Below, piece after piece: positions 9,987 through 29,266 of a stretch of 41,548 nt of DNA. The DNA is from Desulfobacterales bacterium. Lineage in GTDB: Bacteria; Desulfobacterota; Desulfobacteria; Desulfobacterales; JANQIE01. Numbering within the stretch: the first letter of the stretch is position 1; every line of letters starts with the position of its first letter. The stretch is taken from assembly GCA_028282295.1 (NCBI GenBank), contig JANQIE010000143.1:1-41548 (forward strand), written 5' to 3'. A program made the position numbers and the translations under genes. The notes beneath the pieces were generated by a model, which searched no databases, was not told where the DNA came from, and was given only the letters and a program-made list of their open reading frames with translations.

Positions 9987-12900
9987 ATGGCGTTGTTCAG
10001 ACGTAAGCCGCAATTCGACCGGCACGATTACGTACCCCCTGTCGCCGACAGTACGGACCTGCCCGAAGAAGTCTTTGCCGCCGAACTGGAAGCGATCAAC
10101 GCGCGCCGCAAGCATTACAAGCAATCGGCGGTGGCGTCAACACCGGCGGCACCGGCGGTCAAGCACGGCCTGGTGGGCGTCGGGTTGTCCGGCGGCGGGA
10201 TTCGTTCGAGCACCTTCAACCTCGGCCTGCTGCAGGCCCTTGATCGCGAAGAATTACTCCCCCGGATCGACTACCTGTCCACGGTGTCGGGCGGCGGGTA
10301 TATCGGCAGTTGCCTGAGCGCTGTTTTTGCCGGTAAAACCGGCACCCAATCCATCCGGGAATTTCCCTTCAAACATGCTTCCGGTACACCGGAGCCCAAA
10401 GCATTCAAGCACCTGCGCGAATACGCGAGCTATCTCAAACCCCCCAGGCCCCTGGCCGGTTTGCGGCTGCCGGGGTTGATCCTGCGCGGTCTGCTGATCA
10501 ATTTTCTTATCCTGCTGCCCTGGGTGCTTTTTGGTGTGGTGGGCACCGTCCTGGTCGCCAAAAGCAGTATCCGCGACGCCCTCGACACCCATCGGGCGGC
10601 CTACACCATCTTCAAGGAAAATCACGATCCGCGGGCCGTTGGAATGCCCGACGACTACCGGGCCGTCACCATTGACCTGCGGTCCGATATCGAGTGGTCC
10701 CGGTCCGGCATCGCCTATGACCTTTTGTTGGCGGGACTGCCCGCCAAGATAACGGTCAAAGGGGCCCGGAAGCTCAAAAACGGCCGCTGGCTGCTGCCCG
10801 GTCAAACCCTGGCAAAACCGGTCTGCACGCTTGAAGGCCAAGGTGTCGCCGACCCTGTGCGCTTGAACGTTGTCGCCTGGCCCGGCAGGAGCCGGACGTT
10901 CATGTTGACCCTGCTGCCGGTCGTAAACGCCCTTGACCGCGACATTGTTGACTGGTTGCTGGCGCGGTTTGATGCCTATCAGGCCGACGTCGACATGGGT
11001 CGTGACCACCAGGGCAAGGCCGTCGCCCGGACACGGCAACTCGATCTGAGCCCCTATCTCAGTCCCCAGAAATATATCCTGCTGACCGGCATGCCGAAAA
11101 ACGCCTATGCCGGCACCGGACAGTTTTTATCGGACGGCCGCTGGCTGTTTAGTGGCTGCGCCGCCGAAACCTTGAAGCTGAAAATGTTGATTCCCGATCT
11201 GCACCGGGACATCGATATCCAGGTAAGCGCCTGGCAGACCCACGACAGCCAGTACCAGCTCCTTCAAGCACCAAAGCGGTATGTGGAACTGCTGCCGTTG
11301 CCGGACGCCGCGGGCGGGCGGCGTTATCGTTTAAAAACCTGGTCGGGTTGCACCGCCAACCAGACCACCGCCACCGAACAGGACGTGCGGCTGCCGGCGG
11401 CCGTGCCCCCCAATCGGGTGCTGGCCTTGAGCGGTTTTGACTGGCAGAACACCGGCGAGAACCGTTACCTGCGCGTTCTCAACCCGGCCGGCGACGCCGG
11501 ATTCGAGAACGGTCGCCGCCTGACCCGGAACCAATGGGTCTTTGTCAACGAGGCCATCGACACCTTGCAGGTGCCCCTGCCGCAGACCGGCCGTGATGCC
11601 GAACCCTTGCGGCTCATCGCCTGGCAGAGCGGCCGGGACGCCGGCGTGACGGATCCGGTCGGGTTGCTCTACCGCGAAACATTCACGCTTACAAAATGGT
11701 TGCTGCTCGGTTTTATCCTGGCCATGGCCTTTTACCCGTTGGTGCAACTGGCGATGCGGGTGTTTGAGAAAAAACACTGGCGCCGGCGTGATCTGTTGAC
11801 CCGCTATTTATGCGGCGGCGGCATCGCCCTGATTGCCGTATGCGCCCTGGTGGAAATCCAGCCGGCGGCCATCTACCTGTTTTATCGCCTCAAGGGCGCA
11901 TTGGGGGTTGTGAATCTTTTCGGCGGGGCGGACAAGCTCATGGCGGTGCTCGGCAGCCTTGTGGCGTCGCTGGGCAGTGTGGCCTCGGCCGTGGCCATCA
12001 GCAAGGGACGCACCTGGGCGCTGAAGATCGGTCCTTATGTGTTGGGGATGATCGGGCCGCTGGTGCTGTGGCTGTTTTATCTTAATTTTTGCGGATGGGC
12101 CCTGCATCCGGCCAACATTCCGGCCATGTTCGCTTCCATCGAAGGCGCCGTGCTGCTGGTTTTCTTCGGCGCCGGGGTCGTGCTGCTGTTGGTCAGCCGC
12201 TGGTTTTACAATATCAACCAGACCTCGTTTCATCCGTTTTACCGCGACCGGCTGAGCCGGGCCTTTATCTTCCGGCTCAATCCCCGGGGACAGATCGACC
12301 CCAACGACACCCTCAAGCTGCATGAACTCGACACCGGCCGGGCGCCGTACCACCTGCTCAACACCACGTTGAATATCCTGGGCAAAAGCAACGCCGGGCT
12401 GAAAGGGCGCAACGCCGAGTTTTACTTTTTCAGCCGCAACTATGTCGGCAGCCGGATCACCGGGTACTATCGAACCGAAGCCTATGAACGGCACGACCCG
12501 CATATCGATCTGGCCGGCGCCATGGCCATATCAGCCGCTGCCGTTGCGCCCAACATGGGACGCATCACCATCCGCAGCCTCACCTTTTTGATGGCCCTTT
12601 TGAACATCCGGCTCGGCTATTGGGCGCTCAACCCCCATAAACTCAGCCAGGGACGCATCGGCCGGCGGGTCGGGCCGTGGTATCTTTTCAAGGAACTGCT
12701 CGGACTGGTAAACGAACGCAGTGACTATCTGAATGTCAGCGACGGCGGCCACCTGGAGAACATGGGTCTGTATGAACTGGTGCGGCGACGTTGCAGGTAT
12801 ATCATCATCGGGGATGCCGAAGCGGATAAGGACATGAACTTCAAGGGACTGGCCGACGCCGTCCGGATGATCCGCATCGACATGGGGATCAAGGTTGAGA

Positions 12901-13223
12901 TCGACCTGGACGACATCTACCGCAAAGACCGACCCCGGGGCCGTCATTTTGCCCTGGGAACCATCCACTACCGCGACGGCAAAGGGTACCTGCTTTACGT
13001 CAAATCGTCGGTCAGTAAAAAGCACAATCCCTACATCGAAAACTACATGGTCGAGCACGCCGCTTTTCCCCACGAGACCACGGCCGACCAGTTTTTCAAC
13101 GAAGCCCAGTTCGAGGCTTACCGGGCCCTGGGCGCCGATGTGGGTGAGAAAGTACTGCAAGATGAGGCGGGCCGGCGATTTATTGCGGCCCTTTTGAATA
13201 ACAGGGAAATAATGGACGGATAA
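9987..13223 (+). CDS. Large membrane-embedded patatin-like phospholipase
   Basis: This is a 1078-aa protein. The patatin domain is split. The N-terminal part has the glycine-rich oxyanion loop GLSGGGIRSS (67-75) and nucleophile Ser101 in LSTVSGGGYIGS; the C-terminal part has the catalytic Asp919 in SDGGHLEN. One hydrophobic segment lies near 165-192 and a set of about four to five lies between about 570 and 750, so the protein is anchored in the inner membrane with a ~380-residue insertion between segments. Members hydrolyse acyl chains from phospholipids. It opens a run of eleven same-strand genes and is 64 bp upstream of the next. It is far longer than a normal bacterial patatin (~300 aa). 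Catalytic residues look intact. Confidence 0.88.
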   Translation: MALFRRKPQFDRHDYVPPVADSTDLPEEVFAAELEAINARRKHYKQSAVASTPAAPAVKHGLVGVGLSGGGIRSSTFNLGLLQALDREELLPRIDYLSTVSGGGYIGSCLSAVFAGKTGTQSIREFPFKHASGTPEPKAFKHLREYASYLKPPRPLAGLRLPGLILRGLLINFLILLPWVLFGVVGTVLVAKSSIRDALDTHRAAYTIFKENHDPRAVGMPDDYRAVTIDLRSDIEWSRSGIAYDLLLAGLPAKITVKGARKLKNGRWLLPGQTLAKPVCTLEGQGVADPVRLNVVAWPGRSRTFMLTLLPVVNALDRDIVDWLLARFDAYQADVDMGRDHQGKAVARTRQLDLSPYLSPQKYILLTGMPKNAYAGTGQFLSDGRWLFSGCAAETLKLKMLIPDLHRDIDIQVSAWQTHDSQYQLLQAPKRYVELLPLPDAAGGRRYRLKTWSGCTANQTTATEQDVRLPAAVPPNRVLALSGFDWQNTGENRYLRVLNPAGDAGFENGRRLTRNQWVFVNEAIDTLQVPLPQTGRDAEPLRLIAWQSGRDAGVTDPVGLLYRETFTLTKWLLLGFILAMAFYPLVQLAMRVFEKKHWRRRDLLTRYLCGGGIALIAVCALVEIQPAAIYLFYRLKGALGVVNLFGGADKLMAVLGSLVASLGSVASAVAISKGRTWALKIGPYVLGMIGPLVLWLFYLNFCGWALHPANIPAMFASIEGAVLLVFFGAGVVLLLVSRWFYNINQTSFHPFYRDRLSRAFIFRLNPRGQIDPNDTLKLHELDTGRAPYHLLNTTLNILGKSNAGLKGRNAEFYFFSRNYVGSRITGYYRTEAYERHDPHIDLAGAMAISAAAVAPNMGRITIRSLTFLMALLNIRLGYWALNPHKLSQGRIGRRVGPWYLFKELLGLVNERSDYLNVSDGGHLENMGLYELVRRRCRYIIIGDAEADKDMNFKGLADAVRMIRIDMGIKVEIDLDDIYRKDRPRGRHFALGTIHYRDGKGYLLYVKSSVSKKHNPYIENYMVEHAAFPHETTADQFFNEAQFEAYRALGADVGEKVLQDEAGRRFIAALLNNREIMDG

Positions 13224-13287
13224 AAAACCGGCAGGACCCGCACACGTGTCCCACCGGCAACAGACAACCACACAGGAGGAATAGAAA

Positions 13288-13830
13288 ATGCCCAATGAAA
13301 CAGCCGGAACCAGTGAAGCGAAAACCGAGTTAAGCGTGACACCCAAAGCCAGTGCGCCCGTGGCCGCGTCCACATCGATGGTGCTTTCCGGCGCCGAAAG
13401 ACAACTGGACGGCAAAACACACGCCGGCATCTCCGTCATGGTTGCCGCCGACGGCCAGCCATCCACCCTGATGATTCCCGACGTGGCCGGTGTCGCCACC
13501 GGCGAACCGGTCTACATCACCAAGCCGATCCGGATCAAGGGCGAGAATCTGAAGAAGTTTCTGGCCAACAAAGGCGTAACACTGCCCGACGCCATCACCA
13601 ACCTGATCGAAGACACCCAGATCTCCTGTGAGGCGTTTTACTACTCGAACAACGGACCGATGCTGCTGATGTTTGCCCTGAAATTTGAAGAAGGCCTGAT
13701 CGCCTCGTTGACCGGTGACGCCGACCTGGGCGCCCTGTTCGATATCAAGGGCGCATCGGTGCGCCTGCTGCGTTGCGCGGAAAGCTCTTTTGACGTGCTC
13801 AAACAATACGCCGCCGGACTGGAAAGCTAA
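13288..13830 (+). CDS. Conserved-looking protein of unknown function (180 aa)
   Basis: A perfect-looking CAGGAGGAATAGAAA precedes the start. There is no signal peptide or membrane segment. The first ~40 residues are rich in Ala, Ser and Thr. The rest looks like a compact alpha/beta domain: strand VYITKPIRI, helix NLKKFLANKG, a stretch ISCEAFYYS and strand LMFALKFEEG. The order 'short helix - ITNL/TNLL - FYY/FGYR - long strand' resembles the N-terminus of the DUF6603-like protein encoded next (DKSLTDILDKL, ATNLLKQI, IAFGYR, VIVTMT-like strand). The two may share a module, which is my inference from eye comparison. It is likely cytoplasmic and likely a partner of that protein. Confidence 0.75.
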   Translation: MPNETAGTSEAKTELSVTPKASAPVAASTSMVLSGAERQLDGKTHAGISVMVAADGQPSTLMIPDVAGVATGEPVYITKPIRIKGENLKKFLANKGVTLPDAITNLIEDTQISCEAFYYSNNGPMLLMFALKFEEGLIASLTGDADLGALFDIKGASVRLLRCAESSFDVLKQYAAGLES

Positions 13831-13840
13831 ATACGATCCG

Positions 13841-13920: not shown

Positions 13921-13951
13921 TTTAAATCTCTTCAGGGAAAACAAAACCCTT

Positions 13952-16840
13952 ATGCCGGAAAAACAAATCAACAGAGCCGACCTGATGGTGCAGGGCCGGG
14001 TGGCGGGAGTCGATCTCGATCTTCTGGGAACCTTGGAAGACGGCAGGCTGGGCGAAATTACCGGTTGTGCCCGGATCGACAAATCGTTGACCGACATTCT
14101 CGACAAGCTGGACGGCAATTTCAAGGACGCCACTAATCTGCTCAAACAGATCGCCGGCGACAAGGACGCCGTGTTTCGCCTGGACAGCATCGCCTTTGGC
14201 TATCGCAACACCGATCCCGGCTTTGTCCAGTTGATCGTGACCATGACCGTGGTCGGCAATGTGTTTCGTTTTGCCATCCTCAAAATGAAAGGCCGGGATT
14301 TTGTCGTCGGCCTCGACCTGAAGTGGGAGCCGTCCATGTTCGGCGGCAATATCCTCTCCGGGCTGGTGGGGGCCATCGCGCTGAAAGACCTGGGGGTGTA
14401 CTGGTCCAGCAACCGTTTTGAAAATCTCAAGTTCGACCCGGCCCGGGATTTCCGGGACATCGATGCCCTGAACCTGTCGGTGCCCGCCGTCAAGGGGCGC
14501 AGCTTCAACAAGGGGCTCAACCTGTCGGCCAAGATCTCGGTGGGCAGCCTGAACCTGCTCGATTTTCTGGGCGGTTCGGACGATGCCCCCGCCGGGCCGC
14601 CCAAACCGGCCGAAACCACACCGGCCGCCAAGCCGGACGAAGCCCAGCTCAAGACCATGCCGACCCGCTGGGTCAAGGTCGACAAAGCCATCGGGCCGTT
14701 TTTCGTCAAGCGCATCGGCTTTGAATATGACGCGCCCGAGGTGATGATCAAGATGGACGGCGGCGTCAACCTGAGCTGCGTGGTGTTGACCCTGCTCGGT
14801 TTCGGCATCAGCTACCCCCTGAACAAGATCACCACCGATATCAAGGAGATACTCAAGGCGCTCCGGTTCCATCTGGACGGCGCCTCCCTGGCCCTGGATG
14901 TGGGGCCGGTTGGAATCGCCGGCGGCCTGCTCAAGGTCAGCGACGACCCCTTGCAGCTCGACGGCACCCTGATGCTGCGGGTGGGCAGCTTCACCCTGGG
15001 GGCCATCGGGTCGTATGCCGATCTGCACGGCACCCCATCGCTGTTCATCTTTGCCGCGTTTCAACAGATCCTGGGCGGACCGCCGTATTTTGTGGTGGCC
15101 GGGCTGGCTTTTGGCTTCGGCATCAACCGGGCGCTGGAAATCCCGCCCATGGATCAGGTGGGCAGCTTCCCCCTGGTCAAGGCGGCCACCGATCCGTTTT
15201 ACCTCGGGACCAAGCTCGATTTGCGGGATGTCAGCGACAAGCTCGGCAAATATGTCTACCCGAGTCCGGGTAACTTCTGGATGGCGGCGGGTCTCAAGTT
15301 TATCTCCTTTGGCCTGATCAACGGTTTTGTGATGGCCACGGTTTCCGTCGGCATCCAGTTCCAGGTGGCCCTGTTGGGTCTGGCCAAGGTCCAGGTGCCG
15401 CCGCAGGCCCCCGGCGCGCCGGAGGTCGAGCCGATCGCCAGCGTGGAACTGGCCATCAAGGTGTGCCTGTCCCTGTCTTCGGGTGTGCTGGCCGTGGAAG
15501 GACAGCTTACTGAAAACTCCTTCATCCTCTCGCGCCAGTGCCGCCTGACCGGCGGGTTCGCGTTTAACTGCTGGTTCTGCCCGGCGCACCTGGGCGACTT
15601 TGTGGTCTCTCTGGGCGGCTACCATCCGCGTTTCGTGCCGCCGGCCCATTATCCGGTGGTGCCCCGGCTGGGGCTGCAATGGTCGGTGTCCAAATATCTT
15701 TCCATCACCGGCGGTATTTACTTTGCCCTGACCCCCTCCTGCTGCATGGCCGGGGGTAAACTGGACGCCGTCTTTCAGATGGGCGGCCTGCGGGCCTGGT
15801 TTTACGCGTATGCCGATTTTCTGATCAGCTGGAAACCGTTTTACTACGACGTGGCCATCGGTATCGGCATCGGTGTGTCCTACACCCTGCGTCTTCTGGG
15901 CATCAGCAAAACCTTCGGCATCGAACTGAGCGCCACCCTGCATTTGTGGGGCCCGCCCTTTGGCGGCACCGCCCACGTGACCTGGTGGGTGATTTCCTTT
16001 GATATCGATTTCGGCGACCAGAAGAAGACGGCCCCCGGCCCCATCGACTGGCAGGAATTTCACCAGTCGTTTTTGCCGCAACCGGACAATGCCGCCAACG
16101 CCGCCACACCCCCGGACCCGGTAATCAACAAAGTGCGCATTGCCAGCGGGTTGATCCGGGAACAGGAAAAGGAGGGGGGCGACCCGTTCAAGGTGGTCAA
16201 CGCCCACACGTTTTCATTTGTCACCGAAGCCGCAGTGCCCTGCACCGGTTTGCAGTTCAACCAGCGACCCGTGACCCCCGTGCATGCCCCGGATGCATCG
16301 CAACTGGGCATCAAGCCGATGGGGGTCGGGCACTTGAATTCGCAGCACAAGGTGACCGTCGAAAAACAGGGCAAACATGGCGACGGCTGGGACGATCACC
16401 TCGAACCGGCCGCCACGGCCCAGGGCATGCCCCATGCCTTGTGGAGCAGCGAACTCGGGCAGCCCAAGCAGCCCAGCGCCAAGCGGATAGCAAACGTTCC
16501 CAACGGCATGACCGTGACCCTGCGCCACCGGCAGCCGAACCATGCCCTGACCTTTATCGATCTGAAGAAATTCAGATATGAAATCATTGCCAAAACCATC
16601 GACTGGGCCGCCGTCGCCATACCGGGCCAGATACCGGCCCCCGGCGATACCAAGTTGAACGTGTTCAGCAAAACCGTTTGGGACAATCCCGACGTAAACG
16701 CCAAGCGCGATGCGATCCTGGCGACCCTGGAGCAGCAAGACATGCAGCTTCACCAGGTGGCCCTGCCCGAACTGGCCGCCCATGCCGCCGAGACGTTTCA
16801 GACGATGCCGGCCATGGCGGTGCCGGGTGAAAGTCTCTAA
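13952..16840 (+). CDS. DUF6603-like large protein
   Basis: This is a 962-aa protein. I chose the ATG at 13952 because the longer frame runs through the REP palindrome. The central region carries motifs I associate with the DUF6603 family, e.g. PSLFIFAAF, LGGPPYFVVAGLAFGFGIN (residues ~365-395) and an IPPM-FPLV stretch. Its many alternating hydrophobic strands with Gly and aromatic residues suggest a long beta-rich or beta-solenoid fold, not transmembrane helices. There is no signal peptide. A proline/alanine linker lies at ~210-230. A Cys-rich patch (NCWFCPAHLG, PSCCMAGG) lies at ~545-600. The last ~200 residues are hydrophilic. Family function is unknown. It follows the 180-aa gene and precedes the 440-aa gene by 33 bp. 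Confidence 0.65.
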   Translation: MPEKQINRADLMVQGRVAGVDLDLLGTLEDGRLGEITGCARIDKSLTDILDKLDGNFKDATNLLKQIAGDKDAVFRLDSIAFGYRNTDPGFVQLIVTMTVVGNVFRFAILKMKGRDFVVGLDLKWEPSMFGGNILSGLVGAIALKDLGVYWSSNRFENLKFDPARDFRDIDALNLSVPAVKGRSFNKGLNLSAKISVGSLNLLDFLGGSDDAPAGPPKPAETTPAAKPDEAQLKTMPTRWVKVDKAIGPFFVKRIGFEYDAPEVMIKMDGGVNLSCVVLTLLGFGISYPLNKITTDIKEILKALRFHLDGASLALDVGPVGIAGGLLKVSDDPLQLDGTLMLRVGSFTLGAIGSYADLHGTPSLFIFAAFQQILGGPPYFVVAGLAFGFGINRALEIPPMDQVGSFPLVKAATDPFYLGTKLDLRDVSDKLGKYVYPSPGNFWMAAGLKFISFGLINGFVMATVSVGIQFQVALLGLAKVQVPPQAPGAPEVEPIASVELAIKVCLSLSSGVLAVEGQLTENSFILSRQCRLTGGFAFNCWFCPAHLGDFVVSLGGYHPRFVPPAHYPVVPRLGLQWSVSKYLSITGGIYFALTPSCCMAGGKLDAVFQMGGLRAWFYAYADFLISWKPFYYDVAIGIGIGVSYTLRLLGISKTFGIELSATLHLWGPPFGGTAHVTWWVISFDIDFGDQKKTAPGPIDWQEFHQSFLPQPDNAANAATPPDPVINKVRIASGLIREQEKEGGDPFKVVNAHTFSFVTEAAVPCTGLQFNQRPVTPVHAPDASQLGIKPMGVGHLNSQHKVTVEKQGKHGDGWDDHLEPAATAQGMPHALWSSELGQPKQPSAKRIANVPNGMTVTLRHRQPNHALTFIDLKKFRYEIIAKTIDWAAVAIPGQIPAPGDTKLNVFSKTVWDNPDVNAKRDAILATLEQQDMQLHQVALPELAAHAAETFQTMPAMAVPGESL

Positions 16841-18196: not shown

Positions 18197-18206
18197 GGTT
18201 TGGGGT

Positions 18207-18253
18207 TGGAAACTGGAAACTGGAAATTTGAAATTTGAAATTTGAAATTTGAA
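18207..18253. repeat. 7-bp microsatellite (GAAATTT units)
   Basis: TGGAAAC units pass into four or more GAAATTT units just after the 440-aa gene. The unit size and composition match the array at 5324-5373 read on the other strand. Confidence 0.85.
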
Positions 18254-18550: not shown

Positions 18551-18636
18551 GTATTTAAATATCGAATTACGCCACGGGAAGACACATTCCCCACGGATTA
18601 ACGCTGACTTTTTACTGCCAAAGTGTGTGTAGAAAA

Positions 18637-19500: not shown

Positions 19501-22500
19501 GTGAAGCGATAGAAAGCACAAAACACGTACTGGTGCCGATGAATGTCGAGGCATTGGCGGTGGGTCGGCAGGTGGTTACCCCGCAGCAGGGCTGGAGCGA
19601 TTTGCGCCCTGATTTTGCCCGTTTGTACAAGGGCAAAATCCTGGGCGGGCAATTGACCCCGTCCCTTGACACGCAAAAAAAAATGGATCTGCCGGCAGGC
19701 ATCCATCTGCACTGGGCCCTGCCGGATGCCCTGACCCATGGGCGCCAGGTCCGTTCGCAAAACGGGGACGCGCCTTCAACCCCGCCAAAGTTTCCGCACA
19801 TTCCCAACCGCTGGATGGTGCAACGGATCAGTCGTCAACCGGATACCGGCAAAATCGCCGTGCGGGCCTGGATCATCGAGAGCGACTATCTGTTCGGTGC
19901 AAAAGAGGATGCACCGGCGCACTGCGTGACCATTCCGAAACTCGATGCGCTGCCGTTGTTCGCGCGGGCCGGCAAATGTGTCGATTACAGTGGCTGGCGC
20001 GAGGGGGCCGACCCGGCCTACAAATTCAAACTCACGGCCCTGGGGTACGGTGATCCGGCCTTTGCCGCCTTCTACCCGGCCTGTAAAAGCCTGTTGGGGT
20101 TTCATGATGCCCTGGATGATGTGCCGGACAACACCACTTTGACCTACATGGTGGCCGGCTGGTATTCGGACGCGACCCAGGACCCGCTGTTTCATGGCGA
20201 TCAGCCCTACGCGCCGGCCGAATGGATCGCGCGGCTCGGTGAATTGAAATGGTCGGTCGATCCGCCGTATCCGATTTTCAGGGCTGATCCGCAGACCCAT
20301 CGTTTTGTTATCTCCGGCTACGGCGATTTAAGCGCGCAATTTCCCGTGGGCGCGGCGTTCGAAGTGCTGGGGGATACCGCCAACCGCGGCAGTTACTCCG
20401 TTACCGGCACGTCCTACGAGGCGCCGGAATTCAGCCTTGCGGTGGCCAACGTTCCCGACGATCAGACCGGCGGCCGGATTGCGCCGCCGCAAATGGCCTG
20501 CCCGGACCGCACGGTTTGCCACGGTCAGGTCTACAACATTGCGTGGCGCGATAAAAATACGGTGTATGCTTCCCAGGTGCCTGATCTGGATGCGGACAAC
20601 TGCCGGGTGGCCGTGGGCAATTCTTCCGGCGAGGCCTTGGCCGCGCTGTTTGCCGAAACGCTGGATCATCCCCGGGCCGAAGATCTGCTGACCGCTTTGC
20701 AGGGCGATATTTTGTCGCACAACACCGATAACCGGGAACTGGAAGCATTGCTGCATCAAAACCGGTTCAGTTCTTTTGACGGCGGCCGCATCCTCGGCGT
20801 GCGCAGGGAAACCGGCCGGGAACCCGACGCCACGACGGGCCAGGAGGCGGCCTTGTCGGATGAAACCATGCACCGGCTGGATGCGGTGAATCAGGCTCAG
20901 ACCCAACGGGCGCGCCTGCGCCGCGAACTGACCGACTACCGCTGGGAGCTTTATGCGGCGTGGTACAAGCAGGTGTTGGCGCAGGGCGCGGTTCGCCTGG
21001 ACGATCAGATCGAGGCCCTGAAGCGGAAGATCGCCGATCTGCAAGCGGCGCTCACGGCCGACGACTCCCGGCTTCGTGCGGGGCGTGACGATTTTAAAGC
21101 CGCCTTGCAGGCCAAGTTCAAGGACCTGACCCCTGTCACCACCCCCGCACCGCCGTTCTGGCAGGCCAATGAGCCGGTGGTGCTGGTGGCGTCGGAAGCC
21201 ACCCGTGCCTCCAAACGTCACGGGCACGACGGCCGCTTTGCGGATACCGGTGAACTGCACTGCCGGATCAGTGGTCAGGAGACCACGGCGATTGTTGTCG
21301 ATATTCCCAACAACCGGCGTGATGTCACTGTTCCGGCCGCGCAGACATTCGATGTTATGCGGGACACCTTTACCGGCGGCGGGGCTGTGCCGCCGGGAAT
21401 TACCGCGGCGCTGCTGCACGAATGCCTGCTGCTCGATCCGTCCCGGGCCGGGCAGATCGCCGATCAGGCGTATCGTGAGGCGGGACTGACCACGCAACCC
21501 GGCCGGGCGGCCCTGCTCGCCGACATCGACGCCTGGCAACGGCCGGAAACCGCCGCCACCCCAACCACCGCCCGCAGTATCGGTGTCCCGCCGTCACCGA
21601 TCGGCCGGTGCGACTGGCACAGCAATCCCTGGCTGCCGGTGTTTTTGAAATGGCGTCTGGTGTGGCACAGCTCCTATGGGCAGATACCGGACGCCCTGGC
21701 AAAGTGGTCGTTCACGGGTGATGGCGAGGATTATCGCTTTACGGGTGACGCGTCCGACGACCAAAACGGTGCGTTTTACGAAGGCTACACCATCCTGACG
21801 CCACATGCCCTGCGCAAGTTCAAGGAGGCCGTGGAGACATATAACCGGACGGCCAAAGATCCGGCCCTGGAAAAGATCATCACCCAATTGGGCGACCTGA
21901 ACATCCTGTCCCAGTTTCTGGGCGGGCTGCAAAAAGCCTTTACCATGCGCGACACGGTATTGCAGCTTCCGCCGATCAAACTGCCGCCGGACGAAGAGAT
22001 CATCGATCCGATTGCCGCCTTTGTCAGCGATGCCGCTGATGCGTCCCCTGATCCGGATAAACCGTTTCTGCCGATCCGGGCCGGGCACGCCAGATTGCTT
22101 GAGGTGGCCGTGGTGGATGCCTTTGGTCAAACCATGGCGCTGCCGGATGAATGCCTTGCCAGACCGGCGCGGGCCGTCAACCTGCGCATCGACGGCGCCA
22201 AGTACGCCCCCCTGATCGAACTGCCGCCCCGGGTGGCCCAGCCGATGCGGCTGCGTTTTGACTGGCCGGCGGCGGCCAACCCGGCGAGCGTGCCGGTGAA
22301 CAGCCCCATCTGCGGGTGGGTCATGCCCAACTATCTGGATAAGAATCTGCTTTTTTTCGATGCCGACGGCAACGGGTTGGGCGCCGTGCAAAAAATTCTG
22401 CGTGAATCCGCGGCCGGCGGCACCGGCGGGGCCGCCCAAAAAGATCTGAAAGCCTTTTTCTGGGTTCCGCAGCCGGGCACGGAACTGCAACCCACGGATA

Positions 22501-23576
22501 TTTTCAACCCTGAACTGAAACAGTTTGTCCACTTTCTCACGGCCATGGACGCGGACACCGGTGACGCTTTTTGGCGCGTGCTCGACACGGCCGTCAGTAA
22601 AATGGATTCCGGGGTGCCCGAGGACGATCCGCTGCTGAGCATCCTTGTGGGCCGCCCCCTGGTGCTGGTGAGCGCTTCCTTGAATCTGGAGTTGGCCGGG
22701 TTGCCGGCCTATGACCAGGCCCTGGACAAGGTTGGCCGGGCCGATACCGGCGGTTTCGATCAGATCCAATTCCCGTTGCTGCTTGGTGATGCCGGGAAGG
22801 ACACCGACGGTCTGGTGGGGTATTTTCGCATGTCCGAGCCCGCGGTTGCGGATTTAGGGCCGTTCCTGCCGGCGGCGGGCGCGCCGGGGCCCGGTGTGCC
22901 CGGCACCATCGAACCGGCGACGCCGCTGACGTTGACGTGTTCCCGTCCGCAGCCGCTGACCCTGTTGATGGACCCGCTGGCCCGCGTGCACGCCCGCACC
23001 GGTGTGCTGCCCAAAACCTACGGTGAATTGCCCCACCGGTGGCGGTCGGCGGCCAAGGCGGTCCGGACCGCCTTTTTCCAGGCGGCCCCGGTTATCAGTC
23101 CGGGCGGTGATTTGCGCCTGCCGAAACCGTCCGACGATTTCGGTAAATGGTCCTGGGCCTGCCGCCCGCAGGTGACCGTGTGGAAGCAGTACGACACCAT
23201 CGATCCGCTCGGCGACCGGGCCGGTTTTCCGCCGGTGCGCCAGCAACTGCAGGAGGGGTGGCTCAAACTGAAACTCAATCCCGTGGCCGTTTTGAAATTC
23301 AGCGTGCGGGAAGGGACGCTGCACGTCCGCCCCCAAACCAACGTCACACTGCAGTGGCTGTTGAAGGGCGGCACGCGGCTGCGTCTGTCCGCGGGACCCG
23401 CGGCACAAAAACCGGAAGTAAAACCGGAAACCATCTGGGAGCGGACCGCCCCTTTTGAAGAGCAGTGTCGGGTGCGGGTCGTCGTCGACACCACGTACAC
23501 GTTGCGCTTGAGCGATGACGACGGCAACTACAGCGAAAAACAAATAACCATAACCGTTGACAAGGAGCAGACTTAA
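19497..23576 (+). CDS. Giant conserved protein of unknown function (1359 aa)
   Basis: This is the longest product in the window. It has no signal peptide or membrane segments. The N-terminal ~170 residues contain GIHLHWALPDALTHG and IPNRWMVQRISR, which look like a domain signature. A long coiled coil lies at about 455-545 (helices with LRRELTDYRWEL and IEALKRKIADLQAAL). The middle carries a GRCDWHSNPWLPVFLKW block and a PLLSILVGRPLVLVSASL block. The last ~90 residues are an Ig-like beta domain (strands VTLQWLLKGG, TTYTLRLSDDDG). The layout suggests a large scaffold or fibre subunit. It is coupled to the 287-aa gene by ATGA and to the next gene by TAATG. Confidence 0.8.
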   Translation: MSEAIESTKHVLVPMNVEALAVGRQVVTPQQGWSDLRPDFARLYKGKILGGQLTPSLDTQKKMDLPAGIHLHWALPDALTHGRQVRSQNGDAPSTPPKFPHIPNRWMVQRISRQPDTGKIAVRAWIIESDYLFGAKEDAPAHCVTIPKLDALPLFARAGKCVDYSGWREGADPAYKFKLTALGYGDPAFAAFYPACKSLLGFHDALDDVPDNTTLTYMVAGWYSDATQDPLFHGDQPYAPAEWIARLGELKWSVDPPYPIFRADPQTHRFVISGYGDLSAQFPVGAAFEVLGDTANRGSYSVTGTSYEAPEFSLAVANVPDDQTGGRIAPPQMACPDRTVCHGQVYNIAWRDKNTVYASQVPDLDADNCRVAVGNSSGEALAALFAETLDHPRAEDLLTALQGDILSHNTDNRELEALLHQNRFSSFDGGRILGVRRETGREPDATTGQEAALSDETMHRLDAVNQAQTQRARLRRELTDYRWELYAAWYKQVLAQGAVRLDDQIEALKRKIADLQAALTADDSRLRAGRDDFKAALQAKFKDLTPVTTPAPPFWQANEPVVLVASEATRASKRHGHDGRFADTGELHCRISGQETTAIVVDIPNNRRDVTVPAAQTFDVMRDTFTGGGAVPPGITAALLHECLLLDPSRAGQIADQAYREAGLTTQPGRAALLADIDAWQRPETAATPTTARSIGVPPSPIGRCDWHSNPWLPVFLKWRLVWHSSYGQIPDALAKWSFTGDGEDYRFTGDASDDQNGAFYEGYTILTPHALRKFKEAVETYNRTAKDPALEKIITQLGDLNILSQFLGGLQKAFTMRDTVLQLPPIKLPPDEEIIDPIAAFVSDAADASPDPDKPFLPIRAGHARLLEVAVVDAFGQTMALPDECLARPARAVNLRIDGAKYAPLIELPPRVAQPMRLRFDWPAAANPASVPVNSPICGWVMPNYLDKNLLFFDADGNGLGAVQKILRESAAGGTGGAAQKDLKAFFWVPQPGTELQPTDIFNPELKQFVHFLTAMDADTGDAFWRVLDTAVSKMDSGVPEDDPLLSILVGRPLVLVSASLNLELAGLPAYDQALDKVGRADTGGFDQIQFPLLLGDAGKDTDGLVGYFRMSEPAVADLGPFLPAAGAPGPGVPGTIEPATPLTLTCSRPQPLTLLMDPLARVHARTGVLPKTYGELPHRWRSAAKAVRTAFFQAAPVISPGGDLRLPKPSDDFGKWSWACRPQVTVWKQYDTIDPLGDRAGFPPVRQQLQEGWLKLKLNPVAVLKFSVREGTLHVRPQTNVTLQWLLKGGTRLRLSAGPAAQKPEVKPETIWERTAPFEEQCRVRVVVDTTYTLRLSDDDGNYSEKQITITVDKEQT

Positions 23577-25237
23577 TGGCCGCCAAACCGTTGCATCTGA
23601 CCGCCGAAATTGTCGCTGACCAAACCAGCGTTACGTTGGGCCAAGGCAATCGGGATAAAAATAGAATCACCATCGCCCTCGCCAATACTTCCGATGAACC
23701 GGTGACGTTCGGCGGTTTTGGTCAAAACGGGACCTTCACCCTGAGCTTTACCATCGGTTCGGGGGCGCAGGATCTTGTCCGCACATTGGCCGAGAGTGTC
23801 AAGCTTGAAATCGATGCCCCGCAGGGTTGGCAGGCCGAGAAGTATAAAAAGATCGACAACCGGGCGGTCTATGCCTTTGACCTGCCGGAAACGGTTTTCG
23901 GTCCCAAGGAACGTAAAACCGTCACCGTGAAAGCGTTTGAGTGTTGCACCGATCCGGGACAGGCCCATCTGCAACTCGCTTTGGCGATATCCGGCTACGA
24001 AGCGTTTGCTGCGGCCGTGGACGTGGCGAAAAAGGCGGCGGCCTTTGAATTGCTGTTCTTCGAGGCGGATCCGTCCTACATCACCACTGAAGACGAGAAG
24101 CAGGCCTTCACGCTCGCCTGGAGCACGATCAAGGCCGGCCGGGTGGTTCTGACCAAAAACGGGCGTGATCCGATCACCTTCACTGCCGGCGGGGATGAAG
24201 GTTTTGAAAACGGTAAAAAGTTTACGTATACCAAAGACCATCCGGACCTTGCCGCCACCGACTACGAATTGACGGCCTATGACGAAACCGGCACGCAGCC
24301 GCCCAAGTCCGTCAAACAGACGGTGTATGTGCTGCAACCCGGATGGCATGAAGTCGAATTTCGTCGCCAATACGGCTACCCGGCGGTGTTGTGCAACCTG
24401 GACGACGTCAACCTGTACGGTATTTTCATTAAAAACGGACAGGCCTGTCTGTGTTCGTCCAAGCACCCCTATGCGGTCTGGAACCTGGAAACCGACGCTG
24501 TTCCGCAAGACATGGGCACCAGCCCCGGTGTCGGTTTCAAGAGCCGTCTTTGGCTGGTCGGCGGCAGTAGTGTGGCGCCCGAAACCTGTTCCAACCGGAT
24601 GTATGCCTACGATGCGCAGACAGCCCAGTGGCAGGCGCAGACCGCCGGCTGGACGGCCCGCATGGGGCATGCCTGCGTGGTCTTCAATCAGCGCCTGTGG
24701 GTCATGGGCGGACTCGACGGCAACGGGAATCCCCTGCAGGACGTTCACAGCATGGATGCCCAGGGCTCCTGGCAGCGTCACGCCGATGCCCCCTGGGCCC
24801 CGCGCTGCATGGCGGCCGTGGCGGTCTACCGGAACAGGCTTTGGATTTACGGCGGTTGCGCGGAACCCTTCGGTGATGCCCGGACGGATATGTGGACCTC
24901 GGCGGACGGCGAGCACTGGGACCAATATGAAATTTTGCCGCATCCGAAGGACGGGGCCCTGGGCGAACCGATCAGCAATGACTTGCAGGTCATCGACAAC
25001 GAACTCTACTTGCTGGGCTCGTTTCGATCGGGGTATTTGTTGAAAGCCAGGAATTTCAGGTTGAACCGGGCGCAACGCATCTGGATTGAAATCGACGGCG
25101 ACAATCCCTGGGATCAGCAGGGCGACAATACCTTCAGCCTGAGCGGGGTGACCTTCAACGATTTACTTTTTTTACGGTCGCTCAATTACCAGACCGAAGA
25201 TAATCCGACCAAGTTGTACTTGTATAAAAAATTCTAA
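23576..25237 (+). CDS. Ig-like/Kelch beta-propeller protein
   Basis: This is a 553-aa protein without a signal peptide. The N-terminal ~145 residues are beta-rich. Residues ~160-255 look like an Ig-fold of the kind with F-TLAWSTIKAGRVVLTKNG and DYELTAYDETG. The C-terminal ~280 residues hold at least three Kelch repeats: SRLWLVGGSS with MYAYD and W, QRLWVMGGLDG with VHSMD and W, and NRLWIYGGCAE with MWTSADG and W, plus a final NELYLLGSF. Kelch propellers bind proteins or glycans. Its start overlaps the stop of the 1359-aa gene by one base. It is likely a binding component of the same assembly. Confidence 0.85.
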   Translation: MAAKPLHLTAEIVADQTSVTLGQGNRDKNRITIALANTSDEPVTFGGFGQNGTFTLSFTIGSGAQDLVRTLAESVKLEIDAPQGWQAEKYKKIDNRAVYAFDLPETVFGPKERKTVTVKAFECCTDPGQAHLQLALAISGYEAFAAAVDVAKKAAAFELLFFEADPSYITTEDEKQAFTLAWSTIKAGRVVLTKNGRDPITFTAGGDEGFENGKKFTYTKDHPDLAATDYELTAYDETGTQPPKSVKQTVYVLQPGWHEVEFRRQYGYPAVLCNLDDVNLYGIFIKNGQACLCSSKHPYAVWNLETDAVPQDMGTSPGVGFKSRLWLVGGSSVAPETCSNRMYAYDAQTAQWQAQTAGWTARMGHACVVFNQRLWVMGGLDGNGNPLQDVHSMDAQGSWQRHADAPWAPRCMAAVAVYRNRLWIYGGCAEPFGDARTDMWTSADGEHWDQYEILPHPKDGALGEPISNDLQVIDNELYLLGSFRSGYLLKARNFRLNRAQRIWIEIDGDNPWDQQGDNTFSLSGVTFNDLLFLRSLNYQTEDNPTKLYLYKKF

Positions 25238-25251: not shown

Positions 25252-27090
25252 ATGGGTTATTTCAAGGCAATCCGAATTCTTCTGATTCTCTGCGCCGGCC
25301 TGTTCCTGTGGGTGTCGCCGGCAGCGGCCCTGCTCAAGGCGACCACGGTTTTGCTGCCCAGCGAAGATGTTAGTGAACCGGCCCGCCCGGATAACATGTT
25401 GCGGGTGGCGGCCGACGGCTCGGCGCCCATTAAACTGGTCAGCACGGCCAGGCTGCGGTTCGACCTGCAATCGATTCCCGCCGCCGCCGACATTACCGGT
25501 GTGACCTTGCGGGTGGAAGGGCAGGCGGTTCAGGAAAATCAGGCGGATGTCAATCCGCAGATGGTCCGTATTTTCACCAACAAAGAAGGGCAGGGCGGTT
25601 CCATCGGCAGTTGGTTCGCCAAGGGCGGTGACACGGTTTTCACCGCGACGTCGGACGCCATGCGCCGGTCCGTGGTTGCCGCCCGCAAGGCCGGCCAAAC
25701 GTTGACGTTGTGGTTGCGCTCAAAGAGCCGCTTGAGCGACTGGCATTACTTCTCGACGCAGTTCTACGGGACTGATACCGCCAGCCAGCCCCGGTTGATT
25801 ATCGAATTCAGCCTTGATCTGCCGACCGTGGCGCCGCCGGAAAGAACCGGGTGGCGGTTTTGCAAGGCGACAAGCCATTTCAAGGCCAAGCCGTTCGCCG
25901 GCGGGTACGGCATGCTCTCCAATCCGGTTTTTTACAATGGCAATGTTTTCTTCTTTGCCAAACCGGATGCCGATCACACCGCGTTGTTTGCCCTGCATTT
26001 TAATGGCAACGAACGCTGGCGCCGGGACATCGAAGACCCTCCGGCGCAATATGCGCGGGTCGGCTACGAGGGGACACTTTATTCCATCGGCCGGCAGCGG
26101 GTGGCGCGCTACAACCTGAATCAAAACGGCCTGCCGGGCGAAAGAACCACGATTGCAGGGCTGAAACTGGCGTTGCCGCCCGCCCTGGGGACCGACGGGA
26201 GTCTTTACTTCACGCATGAAGGATATGCCTACGGGCTCAATGCGTTGATGCAGGAGCTGTGGCGCTATCCGCAAAAAGGGACCGGATCGGCCTTCAGCCC
26301 CATCGTTCTTGCGCCGCCGGCACAACAACGGGCGTATATCGTTGCCCGGGTGAATAACCAAAACTATCTGACACCGCTCAACTGCGCCTTTGGCCGGCTG
26401 ACCGATCTGCCGTTCGCCAATAAATATACGGATTTTCATACGCCCGTGGTCATTGCCGGCGACGGGGCCACATCGGATTATGTTTACCTGGCCGCCAACT
26501 CGCAATCGGACGGGGTGCTGGCGTGCTATTCCGGCGAGGAGCAGATCTGGTCCGCCCCGGGACCGGTTTCCCAACCGGTCGCCACCGCCGACGGCAGACG
26601 ATTGGTTGCGGTGCAAAACGGCAAGCTGAAAGTATTTGACCGGCTTAATGGGCGGACAATGGCTGTTTCAACCCGTGACAATCTGGCGGCCACCTCCAAT
26701 CCGGTGCTGGATGGTGACGATAATGTCTACTTCTGGAACAATGGCATCTTTTACGGCTTTGACAAAACCTGCAAACTTTTGACAGCCCAGCAACTGCCCG
26801 GTCTGGCCGAACGGCTTGCACTTGAGTTCGCGCCCGACGGCACGCTGTATGCCCGCAATTTGAAAACCCGGCAACTGACCCTGATTCTGCCGACCCTGAA
26901 CAAACTGACGGTGAAGCCGGACAATCTGCAGACCGACACCATCTATTCGGCGGATACGGTGCGGATTGCGCCGAACCTGACATTGAGCCGGAATATCAAC
27001 ATTGCGTTGAAAGCCCGCGACCGCATTTCCATCGGGCGCGGATTCACGGTTAAAAAAGGGGCTCGTCTAACCTGCAAAACCGGATATTGA
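25252..27090 (+). CDS. Exported repeat-propeller protein with coathanger-like C-terminus
   Basis: A clear AAGGAG precedes the start. Residues 1-25 are a signal peptide (ending SPAAA), the first in the cluster. A domain of the DNRLRE/CBM96-like type follows (RLRFDLQSIPAAADITGVTLRVEG), then about seven propeller-like strands sets (NGNVFFFAKP, DGSLYFTHEG, DNVYFWNNG). The end carries NINIALKARDRISIGRGFTVKKGA, which resembles the C-terminal '3-coathanger stack' motif of secreted adhesin-like proteins. It is 14 bp after the Kelch gene. It probably sits in the periplasm or on the surface. Confidence 0.75.
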   Translation: MGYFKAIRILLILCAGLFLWVSPAAALLKATTVLLPSEDVSEPARPDNMLRVAADGSAPIKLVSTARLRFDLQSIPAAADITGVTLRVEGQAVQENQADVNPQMVRIFTNKEGQGGSIGSWFAKGGDTVFTATSDAMRRSVVAARKAGQTLTLWLRSKSRLSDWHYFSTQFYGTDTASQPRLIIEFSLDLPTVAPPERTGWRFCKATSHFKAKPFAGGYGMLSNPVFYNGNVFFFAKPDADHTALFALHFNGNERWRRDIEDPPAQYARVGYEGTLYSIGRQRVARYNLNQNGLPGERTTIAGLKLALPPALGTDGSLYFTHEGYAYGLNALMQELWRYPQKGTGSAFSPIVLAPPAQQRAYIVARVNNQNYLTPLNCAFGRLTDLPFANKYTDFHTPVVIAGDGATSDYVYLAANSQSDGVLACYSGEEQIWSAPGPVSQPVATADGRRLVAVQNGKLKVFDRLNGRTMAVSTRDNLAATSNPVLDGDDNVYFWNNGIFYGFDKTCKLLTAQQLPGLAERLALEFAPDGTLYARNLKTRQLTLILPTLNKLTVKPDNLQTDTIYSADTVRIAPNLTLSRNINIALKARDRISIGRGFTVKKGARLTCKTGY

Positions 27091-27116
27091 CCGGATATTG
27101 ACCGGATATTGATTGG
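27079..27116. repeat. 11-bp tandem repeat spanning a stop codon
   Basis: CCGGATATTGA is repeated three times, with a fourth degenerate unit. The first copy contains the TGA stop of the exported propeller gene, so the repeats extend into the 3' untranslated side. Confidence 0.8.
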
Positions 27117-27136
27117 ATGACCAGAGGGAGGTCGAT

Positions 27137-27811
27137 ATGATGTTGAATGTACCAAGCGGGATCATGCGCTGGGGTGTTCTTCTGCTCACACTCACGAGTG
27201 TTTTGCTTCTGTCGGCAGGGCACCTGCCGGTTCAGGCGCAAGACAGCGACGACGCCCTGTTCATCGATGACCAGGGCCGGGTCGGCATCGGCAATCAAAC
27301 CCCCGGAGCGCCGCTGGATGTAACCGGCGTGATTCGCGGGGTTGGCATGGTGCCGCCGGGCGGCATCGTGATGTTCAGCGGCCAGGTGGCCACCTCGTTT
27401 GACGCCAAGGGACGGGGATTGACGGGAACGCCTTACGAAGGCTGGCAGCTTTGCAACGGCAACAACGGGGCGCCGAATCTGGCCCACCGGTTTATTCTGC
27501 CCTCTGCCGCGGCCAAGGGCGAAGATATCGGCCACACCGGTGGTCAGGACAAGGTGACTTTAAAAATAAAGCATCTGCCGTCGCACAATCATAACGGCAG
27601 CACAGGCAACGCGACCACTCAACTGCCGAAGATATTAAGCGGCACCGCGGCCCGCAAGGCCGGTTTGGTTATCAAGACCACTTCGGTCAGCGGCCCGCAC
27701 AGGGAAGACAAAAGCCACCACCATGCCATCGCCGCCCAGGGCGGCGGGCAACCCCATGAGAACATGCCGCCTTACTATGTTTTGGCTTTCATCATGCGAT
27801 TGCCGCAGTGA
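27137..27811 (+). CDS. Exported phage-tail-collar protein 1
   Basis: This is a 224-aa protein; the start at 27137 follows GAGGGAGGTCGAT. A signal peptide (hydrophobic to ~VQA) is followed by the module DDALFIDDQGRVGIGNQTP-LDVTG, the kind of beta-helix entry repeat seen in tail fibres. The rest is a collar domain: PPGGIVMFSG, YEGWQLCNGNNGAPNL, the His motif HLPSHNHNG and the C-terminal NMPPYYVLAFIMRL. Such domains form the tip of phage tail fibres and bacterial surface fibres. It is closely related to the next gene, so a duplication is likely. Confidence 0.88.
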   Translation: MMLNVPSGIMRWGVLLLTLTSVLLLSAGHLPVQAQDSDDALFIDDQGRVGIGNQTPGAPLDVTGVIRGVGMVPPGGIVMFSGQVATSFDAKGRGLTGTPYEGWQLCNGNNGAPNLAHRFILPSAAAKGEDIGHTGGQDKVTLKIKHLPSHNHNGSTGNATTQLPKILSGTAARKAGLVIKTTSVSGPHREDKSHHHAIAAQGGGQPHENMPPYYVLAFIMRLPQ

Positions 27812-27865
27812 GATCGCTTCCATCGACTGAAGACTGAATAGGAACAAATTAAGAAAGGAATCGGA

Positions 27866-28648
27866 ATGACGCACGCAAGTATGCAAGGGGGAAGAAGTTT
27901 ACGATCGATTCGAGCCGGCCGGCGCGGCCTTTGGAATATCTGGATTATCCGGGTCCTGCTGGCGGCGGCGGTGCTGATGCCGTCAAGCGGATTCAGCGAA
28001 CCGGCGGCCAGCGATGACGCCCTGCATATCGACACCGCCGGCCGTGTCGGCATCGGCAACCAGACACCCCGGACCACCCTGGATGTGTCCGGCACGATTT
28101 CGGGTATCGGCATGGTGCCGCCGGGCGGTATTGTCATGTTCAGCGGTGATGTGAGCCAAACCTTCGATGCCGACGGCAAAGGCTTGGCCGGCACCCGGTA
28201 TGAAGGCTGGCAGCTTTGCAACGGCAACAACAATGCGCCGGATCTTCGCAATCGCTTCGTGGTCGCAGCCGGCGGAAAATACAAGCGGGGCGATAACGGC
28301 GGCAAGGATATGATCGCGTTGAGTGTCGATCACATGCCGGCACACAAGCATTCCGGCAGGACCGGCGGCACGGGAAAACATGAGCACTGGATCGAAGGCA
28401 CCGACGCCAACGGCCTGGCATGGCGCCAGCGGCGCATTCCGGGCACGACCACGGTTGACATGGGTTGGGGCGGCGGTAAAAACAGCGACCCGAATAAAAT
28501 GCACTGGCGCGGCATGGTCAATACGAACACCACCGGCAATCACAGTCACCCGTTCACCACCGGTGCGACCGGTAAAAGCCAACCGCATGAAAACCGGCCC
28601 CCGTTTTATGCGCTGGCCTTTATCATGCGGTTGCCGATAGCGGAATAA
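27866..28648 (+). CDS. Exported phage-tail-collar protein 2
   Basis: This is a 260-aa paralogue of the preceding gene. AAGAAAGGAATCGGA precedes the start. The N-terminus is long and Arg-rich (RAGRRG) before a hydrophobic segment ending in GFS. Then come SDDALHIDTAGRVGIGNQTP, PPGGIVMFSGDVSQTF, YEGWQLCNGNNNAPDLRNRF, HMPAHKHSGRTGG and NRPPFYALAFIMRL. The collar loop is longer than in protein 1 and adds a GTGKHEHWIEG-type His-rich stretch, which could bind metal as tail-tip His clusters do. The differing loops suggest different ligands. Confidence 0.88.
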   Translation: MTHASMQGGRSLRSIRAGRRGLWNIWIIRVLLAAAVLMPSSGFSEPAASDDALHIDTAGRVGIGNQTPRTTLDVSGTISGIGMVPPGGIVMFSGDVSQTFDADGKGLAGTRYEGWQLCNGNNNAPDLRNRFVVAAGGKYKRGDNGGKDMIALSVDHMPAHKHSGRTGGTGKHEHWIEGTDANGLAWRQRRIPGTTTVDMGWGGGKNSDPNKMHWRGMVNTNTTGNHSHPFTTGATGKSQPHENRPPFYALAFIMRLPIAE

Positions 28649-28666
28649 AAAAAAGGAGAAGCGATC

Positions 28667-29266
28667 ATGGCGGATGAAGTCGTTGCCGATATGGCGATCT
28701 ACTACGAAGACGAGTACGATATCGTCTGGAAGAACAGTGAGCACAGCGGCTACCGGGGGGTGGCGCTGCAAACCGCAACCGATTTTACCTTTGCGACCAG
28801 CGGGGTGTGCTGTTTCGACTTTATTTTGTATTCGGCCTTCAATGCCGGCAGGATCGACAAGGCCCGGCTCAAAACCATCTACCAGGGGATTGTGGCCGGT
28901 CGCTATGCATCGGCCGCGCCGTTGCATGGTGACAACAAACTGTGGCTGCTGCAACGTGAAGAGCTTGGCGGCGCGGGCTATGGCTCGAATGTGACCCGGG
29001 ACTGGCCGGATGAGGGCGTTCTGGTATTTTTCAGCCGCCCCAGGATCGGCACCGAGCTGGACCACGTGGCCCTTTCCATCGGCGGGGGCGAAGTTCTCAG
29101 CTTTGGGGAGTCGGTACCCGCGATCGCAGAAAAAGAAAAGCTCTCCCAGGACGACCTCAATAGAAACGGCCTGCCGCAAAAAGTAAAACGAATGGAGATC
29201 GCCGCGATAAAAGACCTCATCGGCGGATTAGTCCGAGTGGCGGCGCCGGTTTGGTCGGCGGTGTAA
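28667..29266 (+). CDS. Papain-like (NlpC/P60- or CHAP-type) hydrolase
   Basis: This is a 199-aa protein; AAAAGGAGAAGCGATC precedes the start. There is no signal peptide. The likely catalytic core is Cys48/Cys49 in SGVCCFDFILYSAF and His133 in LDHVALSIGGGEVLSFGE, an order and spacing matching NlpC/P60-like amidases, though similarity is weak. It is the last gene of the cluster and directly follows the two collar genes, a position where phage tails often carry a cell-wall hydrolase. It might instead process another cluster protein. Confidence 0.65.
   Translation: MADEVVADMAIYYEDEYDIVWKNSEHSGYRGVALQTATDFTFATSGVCCFDFILYSAFNAGRIDKARLKTIYQGIVAGRYASAAPLHGDNKLWLLQREELGGAGYGSNVTRDWPDEGVLVFFSRPRIGTELDHVALSIGGGEVLSFGESVPAIAEKEKLSQDDLNRNGLPQKVKRMEIAAIKDLIGGLVRVAAPVWSAV

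Follow-up and report, generated by a model that had tools for sequence, protein, structure and literature searches.

Several giant proteins act together with a separate enzyme in the Tc (ABC) toxins. Extracellular contractile injection systems (eCIS) are encoded by operons in environmental bacteria, carry toxin cargo, display fibers with variable tips (including S74 tips), and are released by lysis (PMC8213781). The umbrella toxins of Streptomyces are multi-protein particles with an interchangeable toxin domain and interchangeable lectin or propeller tips (PMC11062931), and polymorphic toxin systems combine a constant carrier with swappable enzyme domains, which are either stand-alone or fused (PMC3482391). 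Here we describe a gene cluster in a Desulfobacterales bacterium (assembly GCA_028282295.1, contig JANQIE010000143.1; the whole stretch analyzed, of 41,548 nucleotides, is referred to as the window), in which a DUF6603 protein (C), a protein encoded in two halves (D and E, together DE), a giant protein (F), and a binder or fiber protein (G) represent a four-part conserved core that is contiguous wherever contigs reach. This four-protein set is apparently so far undescribed. Its most likely role, to which we give about an even chance, is the delivery of polymorphic effectors, namely enzymes, to other cells by a particle that has no relationship to phage tails.

A sequence-only reading of the window had delimited eleven genes (A to K) on the forward strand between 9987 and 29266, and their order, strand, and coordinates were all borne out by our analysis. 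Together with two loci from metagenome-assembled genomes (MAGs), L031 (Syntrophobacteraceae) and L046 (Pyrinomonadaceae), the window forms a small subclade with a support of 100 in a FastTree tree of F, a tree with long branches. The features of the window are as follows.

9757-9785, forward strand: candidate sigma-70-like promoter, TTGACA-17-TATGGT with an extended -10 (10/12 match; 8 such sites in the region versus 6.1 by chance)
9987-13223, forward strand: A, membrane patatin-like phospholipase, 1078 aa, occupant of the enzyme slot (PF01734, E 3.6e-6, 27.7 bits, exactly at the cut-off)
13288-13830, forward strand: B, small protein, 180 aa, kept in the window subclade (relative in L031, E 2e-49; gene of similar size in the same position in L046; no family match)
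13952-16840, forward strand: C, DUF6603 core protein, 962 aa, ATG at 13952 (PF20248, E 3.9e-144, 481 bits versus a cut-off of 27)
16874-18196, forward strand: D, 440 aa, N-terminal half of core protein DE (one protein with E in most homologues; no family match)
18197-18636, no strand: D-E gap, filled with GAAATTT tandem repeats and a palindromic element
18637-19500, forward strand: E, 287 aa, C-terminal half of core protein DE (one protein with D in most homologues; no family match)
19497-23576, forward strand: F, giant core protein, 1359 aa (153 relatives in genome contigs; no significant Pfam, PHROG, or PDB match)
23576-25237, forward strand: G, binder or fiber with an Ig-like N-terminal domain and a Kelch propeller, 553 aa (G-family profile, E 3e-26, residues 22-252; Kelch, E 5e-16)
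25252-27090, forward strand: H, exported protein, 612 aa, subclade accessory (signal-like N-terminus; middle part propeller-like, as judged by eye; no relatives outside L031 and L046)
27137-27811, forward strand: I, exported phage-collar-type fiber protein (PHROG tail fiber, E 1.8e-18)
27866-28648, forward strand: J, exported phage-collar-type fiber protein (PHROG tail fiber, E 1.9e-23)
28667-29266, forward strand: K, papain-like/NlpC-P60-like protein without signal peptide (PF00877, E 0.015, below the cut-off; no relative in the fetched loci)
32680-33690, forward strand: third exported fiber-like protein with VGIGT..LDVNG repeats (relatives located 3' of the same core: L031, E 9e-91; L046, E 4e-62)

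The genes are tightly coupled, as the sequence-only reading had noted, with ATGA at 19497 joining E to F and TAATG at 23574 joining F to G. Intergenic distances are 64 bp (A-B), 121 bp (B-C), 33 bp (C-D), 440 bp (D-E), -4 bp (E-F), and -1 bp (F-G), followed by 14 bp (G-H), 46 bp (H-I), 54 bp (I-J), and 18 bp (J-K) in the 3' part; the range of 14-65 bp initially given, with the repeat-filled D-E gap as the exception, thus describes most pairs and fails for B-C. Neither the repeats nor the palindromic element of the D-E gap is expected in shuffled sequence, and the element, which consists of two ATTCCCGCGCAGGCGGGAATCC copies in opposite orientation, occurs twice, at 18317-18396 within this gap and at 29720-29799 just after K. 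The patatin is the sole membrane-embedded protein, with several strong hydrophobic segments in A and none in B, D, E, F, G, or K; a single marginal segment lies within the sheet of C, and in H, I, and J the only such segment is N-terminal. B to G lack a signal peptide and H, I, and J carry a signal-like N-terminus, also in agreement with the initial description, as are the patatin Ser and Asp motifs of A (SGGGIRS, STVSGGGYIG, and SDGGHLEN, read by eye) and the Kelch and collar motifs of G, I, and J. K, which lacks a signal peptide and only weakly matches NlpC/P60, is not conserved with the cluster.

In a scan of Genome Taxonomy Database (GTDB) genomes, a sample that is mostly Actinomycetota, 153 relatives of F were identified, and the loci of the best 80 of these 153 were analyzed, with genes in GC-rich loci called as the longest open reading frame (ORF). 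F loci span Actinomycetota, Bacteroidota, Pseudomonadota, Cyanobacteriota, Bacillota, Acidobacteriota, Planctomycetota, Chlorobiota, Thermodesulfobacteriota, and an SAR324 bin, representing at least nine phyla. Profile hidden Markov models (HMMs) detected D in 71/80 of these loci, E in 74/80, G in 75/80, and C in 72/80, and all absences fall at contig or locus ends, except that of G in L044. Co-occurrence of the 287-, 440-, and 1359-aa proteins with DUF6603 in unrelated genomes, which the sequence-only reading had set as the test of its proposal, was confirmed for the 72 loci with C, the other eight being truncated at the edge of a contig or locus. The 440- and 287-aa proteins do belong to the conserved set; in most genomes, they represent halves of a single protein. 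The order C-D-E-F on one strand was found in 67 of the 69 complete loci, with an alternative order (F, fiber, C, DE) in some cyanobacteria and Saprospiraceae. In the reverse test, which started from the DUF6603 profile, D was the next gene in 38 of 42 loci; the remaining four end too soon, and extending some of them reveals D/E and F. Six more Bacteroidota loci identified through this profile (L165-L170) carry D/E and F as well. F relatives that are 26-30% identical are also found on Streptomyces, Embleya, and Paenibacillus plasmids, where F follows DUF6603 and, in most, a single protein that corresponds to D plus E; the exception is a P. sonchi plasmid copy (L007) with a broken F and without DUF6603 in the fetched stretch. 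Occurrence is patchy, with matches at E <1e-100 in 44/298 genomes of a Streptomycetaceae-family sample, 7/296 of a Bacteroidota sample, and 2/194 of the window's order. Weaker DUF6603 matches in Bacteroidota and Streptomycetaceae (L171, L172, and others; E about 1e-12 to 1e-22) represent a more distant variant in which the surrounding genes differ; in L171, a D-like protein of 1074 aa is also present, and this variant may be a second version of the system.

The nearest F relatives of the window are from Acidobacteriota and Thermodesulfobacteriota MAGs. B to J and the further fiber gene recur in L031 and, with a different patatin, in L046; as F is only 33-36% identical among these loci, this clustering is not due to chance. 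The 3' part (H to K), which had been counted among the cluster members, is specific to the small subclade of the window, and K is not conserved even there. As H, the collar fibers, and the fiber at 32680-33690 are kept in the subclade, the cluster reaches past 29266, and the right edge initially placed at this position is too short.

Different loci encode different proteins directly upstream of DUF6603. The patatin, which had been taken as a constant partner of DUF6603, is one occupant of this variable enzyme slot, and another patatin is found at the slot position in L046 and L157. All 44 classified slot genes are on the strand of the core, and almost all of them end no more than about 150 bp away from the DUF6603 ORF. 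Slot classes include metallo-beta-lactamase (MBL; 14), endonuclease/exonuclease/phosphatase (EEP; 5), lipase-3-like (4), HNH-like (4), and hemopexin (3) proteins; since the references used for classification were drawn from the same loci, these counts are descriptive and are no measure of enrichment. Pfam matches support the MBL fold, Exo_endo_phos, class-3 lipase, hemopexin, and patatin types, as well as a Bd3614-like deaminase (E 9e-13), a trypsin (E 2e-7), a DUF4135 (LanM-type) protein (E 9e-19), and a pertussis-S1/Scabin-type ADP-ribosyltransferase (ART; PF02917, E 3e-8). Motif reading is the basis for an HNH-like family, a glycosyltransferase (GT)-like family, and one GIY-YIG-like protein; no library assigns the "GT-like" (L032, L061, L063, L088) or "HNH-like" (L072, L141) labels, and the GIY-YIG label in L166 corresponds to a weak UvrC match (E 0.13). 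A likeness to ribosome-inactivating proteins that was noticed by eye in L052 found no support in Pfam or PDB and was dropped. The catalytic motifs HxDxDH, GDFN/SDH, and HxE are kept in the MBL, EEP, and deaminase slot proteins. When labelled rows only are counted, with 11 classes, the F tree requires at least 15 switches of slot class. The strongest link between slot enzyme and core is their fusion: an HNH-like domain and DUF6603 share a single reading frame, with the HNH-like domain on the N-terminal side, in five independent cases (L066, L112, L120, L109 [= L145], and L111 [= L147]), and an MBL domain is fused to the DUF6603 N-terminus in the gammaproteobacterial locus L054.

Further observations concern the surroundings of DUF6603 in individual loci. 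Large slot proteins without a family assignment just before DUF6603 in L168 (3687-6917, 1076 aa) and L170 (4492-6291, 599 aa) are candidates for new enzyme families, and the lipase-like proteins upstream of DUF6603 in L153, L154, L155, and L138 are two-domain, class-3-lipase-like proteins. In one subclade, in which DUF6603 is giant (about 3200 aa), a single polyketide synthase (PKS) module (AMP-ligase, KS, AT, KR, ACP, TE) and an Asp/Asn beta-hydroxylase directly follow the core and G (L014 15422-23366, L015, L017, L026, L090), with a remnant of this arrangement in L018.

One to four G copies follow F. The Ig-like N-terminal region of G represents a single family that includes the window G and is found in 92 loci, some of which are duplicates, and the C-terminus varies among Kelch and other propellers, S74 chaperone, laminin-G/ConA, F5/8C, PLAT, fn3, and collar domains. 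Receptor-binding fibers likewise combine a constant anchor and a variable tip. Fusions of G occur with F in L032 and with DE in L054, L046 encodes membrane-anchored collar proteins, and in an Acidobacteria MAG (L012, 13626-16485) three phage-collar proteins of about 190 aa are interleaved with G. An enzyme at one end and fiber-like display proteins at the other, as proposed by the sequence-only reading for a multi-protein system, are thus present, and assembly of these proteins into one particle would be consistent with this layout.

Comparison with the systems introduced above showed shared design and separate parts. As in eCIS, the genes form an operon in environmental bacteria and include fibers with variable tips, S74 among them, next to putative toxin cargo. 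Unlike eCIS, the core genes match no contractile-injection Pfam family (sheath, tube, or baseplate), with only collar/Gp10_C-type fiber ends detected, in I, and no such family ranks among the 25 Pfam families most often found in 93 flanking proteins. In addition, C, D, and F have no PHROG family match, neither F nor C matches any of 50,697 phage records, and viral contigs contain no F relative. Phage or prophage origin was rejected on this absence of F and C phage homologues; only I and J carry tail-fiber domains. A swappable, putatively toxic enzyme and swappable tips are shared with umbrella toxins, but the window genes have no Pfam match to ALF repeats or to a trypsin-like UmbA with lectin, the core has no trypsin-lectin/UmbB architecture and no signal peptides, and the phylum range is wider. 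With polymorphic toxin systems the cluster shares a variable enzyme domain on a constant carrier and part of the enzyme repertoire (deaminase, HNH-like, ART) (PMC3482391); here, however, the enzyme is N-terminal to or upstream of the carrier rather than C-terminal, the carrier families are unlike known ones, and no conserved immunity gene was identified next to the slot. In contrast to Tc toxins, the core has no TcA, SpvB, or RHS domain in Pfam searches; a census of flanking genes in related loci found one SpvB domain (PF03534, E 1e-62) and two proteins with RHS repeats, outside the conserved set. Consistent with the expectation of the sequence-only reading, no described system with this gene set was found in open-access papers, among which there was no paper under DUF6603 or PF20248 and no convincing match for the gene combination. 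We tentatively propose, with chances just short of even, that the cluster represents an undescribed class of enzyme- or toxin-delivery particle, present in at least nine phyla and unrelated in sequence to phage tails, Tc toxins, and umbrella toxins, with a DUF6603 hub that carries one swappable enzyme, a DE-F body, and swappable target-binding fibers.

Structural models were obtained with AlphaFold2 (AF2). A fused DE homologue was modelled with a predicted local distance difference test (pLDDT) score of 82.5, and its fold had no match at E<0.001 among PDB and viral models. The C model (pLDDT 77; predicted template modelling [pTM] score 0.54) is an antiparallel meander of about 26 strands, many of them with alternating polarity, i.e., amphipathic, and with about 14% charged residues; its loose fold neighbors are ApoB100, LptD, SlpA, and ushers, at TM-scores of 0.12-0.20. 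The lack of a signal peptide and the occurrence in Gram-positives set C apart from ordinary outer-membrane barrels; a lipid-binding or membrane-inserting sheet is a reasonable guess from this model. PDB sequence-profile searches returned nothing for C and DE up to E 5 and only chance-level matches for F.

A constant hub with a swappable enzyme and swappable surface-binding fibers follows the logic of delivery particles, as in eCIS, umbrella toxins, and polymorphic toxins. Under this reading, an assembly of C, DE (split into D and E in the window), F, and one to four G proteins would carry one interchangeable enzyme. C would serve as the hub and hold the cargo enzyme, and the very large amphipathic beta sheet of C, with its low charge, may contact or cross the target membrane, possibly translocating the cargo, which would then be toxic to the target. 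DE and F would build the particle body, and G would dock through its constant N-terminal domain, with the variable tip recognizing the target surface. As the core lacks signal peptides, particles would leave the cell by lysis, as is the case for tailocins and eCIS. In the window version, the slot enzyme would be the membrane patatin, with extra exported collar fibers added at the 3' end.

A number of observations weigh against this reading. Antibacterial polymorphic toxins normally require an immunity gene, and neighborhood clustering identified no conserved small immunity gene beside the slot, although divergent single immunity genes could be missed by this approach. The patatins of the window and L046 have transmembrane segments, which is odd for released cargo. 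In about half of the 88 observable loci, no slot gene could be assigned to a class, which is due in part to unreliable ORF calling where the DNA is GC-rich. Among the lipase-like slot proteins of the giant-C subclade, that of L138 alone retains the catalytic serine (GHSLG); the serine motif is replaced in L153 (GHGFG), L154 (AHGLG), and L155 (GHDIG), and these three proteins are therefore probably not enzymes. A toxin model also gives no account of the PKS module and Asp-hydroxylase that stand beside the core in this subclade, the slot MBLs resemble LmuA, the intracellular defense effector of Lamassu (PADLOC, E 3e-12), and a DRT-associated MBL, and the low TM-scores of the C fold make pore formation or lipid binding a guess.

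The resemblance to LmuA also bears on the chief alternative, which we consider about half as likely as delivery, namely that C, DE, and F form a cytoplasmic sensor of an anti-phage or stress immune complex in which the variable domains of G recognize an invader structure and the slot enzyme (for example, a deaminase, a nuclease of the MBL or EEP type, or a patatin that attacks membranes) is an abortive effector. Interchangeable effectors are a feature of Lamassu- and Avs-type modules, and overlap of the slot repertoire with defense effectors, a core without signal peptides, the absence of dedicated immunity genes, a membrane-embedded patatin suited to attack on the cell's own membrane, patchy distribution, and one plasmid copy near CATRA/caspase and CHAT conflict genes would all fit such a complex. 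PADLOC, however, returned no match for any core protein (at E up to 1, none of eight window proteins had a family hit), and no SMC, NTPase, sensor domain, or other defense core protein was recognized, including as a recurrent family among the most frequent Pfam families of the flanking proteins. The G tips, moreover, are surface-binding or phage-fiber maturation domains (S74, collar, lectin, discoidin), the window subclade adds exported collar fibers, and the pertussis S1 family ART is typical of exported toxins. Overall, G fibers and lectin-like tips favor an external target, and the membrane-embedded patatin and immune-effector-like slot enzymes leave room for an intracellular role.

An external role without any toxin, in which hydrolases are anchored on a cell-surface or extracellular scaffold for scavenging or matrix remodelling and G binds substrate or matrix, appears improbable. 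While most slot enzymes are hydrolases, G tips include carbohydrate- and lipid-binding folds as well as propeller repeats, and L046 has membrane-anchored collar proteins, the deaminase, ART, LanM-like, and HNH-like slot proteins are not enzymes for scavenging, nucleic acids or targets inside cells would be the substrates of several cargo types, and both the core and most slot proteins lack signal peptides. We give similarly little credence to an apolipoprotein-like particle, in which DUF6603 would wrap or transport a lipid or polyketide from neighboring enzymes. The long amphipathic, low-charge meander of C with its ApoB100, LptD, and SlpA neighbors suggests such a role, as do the patatin and lipase-like slot genes, the PKS module with Asp-hydroxylase, and a PLAT domain in one G; the TM-scores, however, are far too low for a claim on fold, most slot enzymes do not act on lipids, and the lipase-like proteins mostly lack the catalytic serine.

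Between the cluster and its last fiber gene, the window contains a low-GC cassette (30648-32651) with a gene for a Tme-type membrane-disrupting toxin (333 aa) and two DUF1240-type immunity genes that are 55% identical to each other. The C-terminal domain of the toxin is like that of PAAR effectors of Pantoea and Lelliottia, and the arrangement corresponds to a Tme/Tmi effector-immunity pair of type VI secretion systems (T6SS), with an ExxK rather than a DxxK motif and a DUF1240 match below the Pfam cut-off. As the host genome encodes two TssB homologues and thus probably has a T6SS, we do not claim the Tme toxin as cargo of the DUF6603 system; the cassette may be T6SS cargo parked beside the cluster. 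A CcbP-type calcium-binding protein (PF11535, E 6e-40) is encoded at 30079-30456, between the cluster and this cassette.

If the proposed delivery function is correct, DUF6603 and three unnamed giant families would form the body of a widespread machine, which would have been invisible so far because no part of it resembles known apparatus. The slot would then provide a catalogue of enzymes that are likely to act on other cells, and the system would be an independent way of uniting exchangeable cargo and exchangeable targeting. Should the delivery reading prove wrong, a conserved operon with a swappable slot and with fusions of slot domains to DUF6603 still provides a direct experimental handle on DUF6603.

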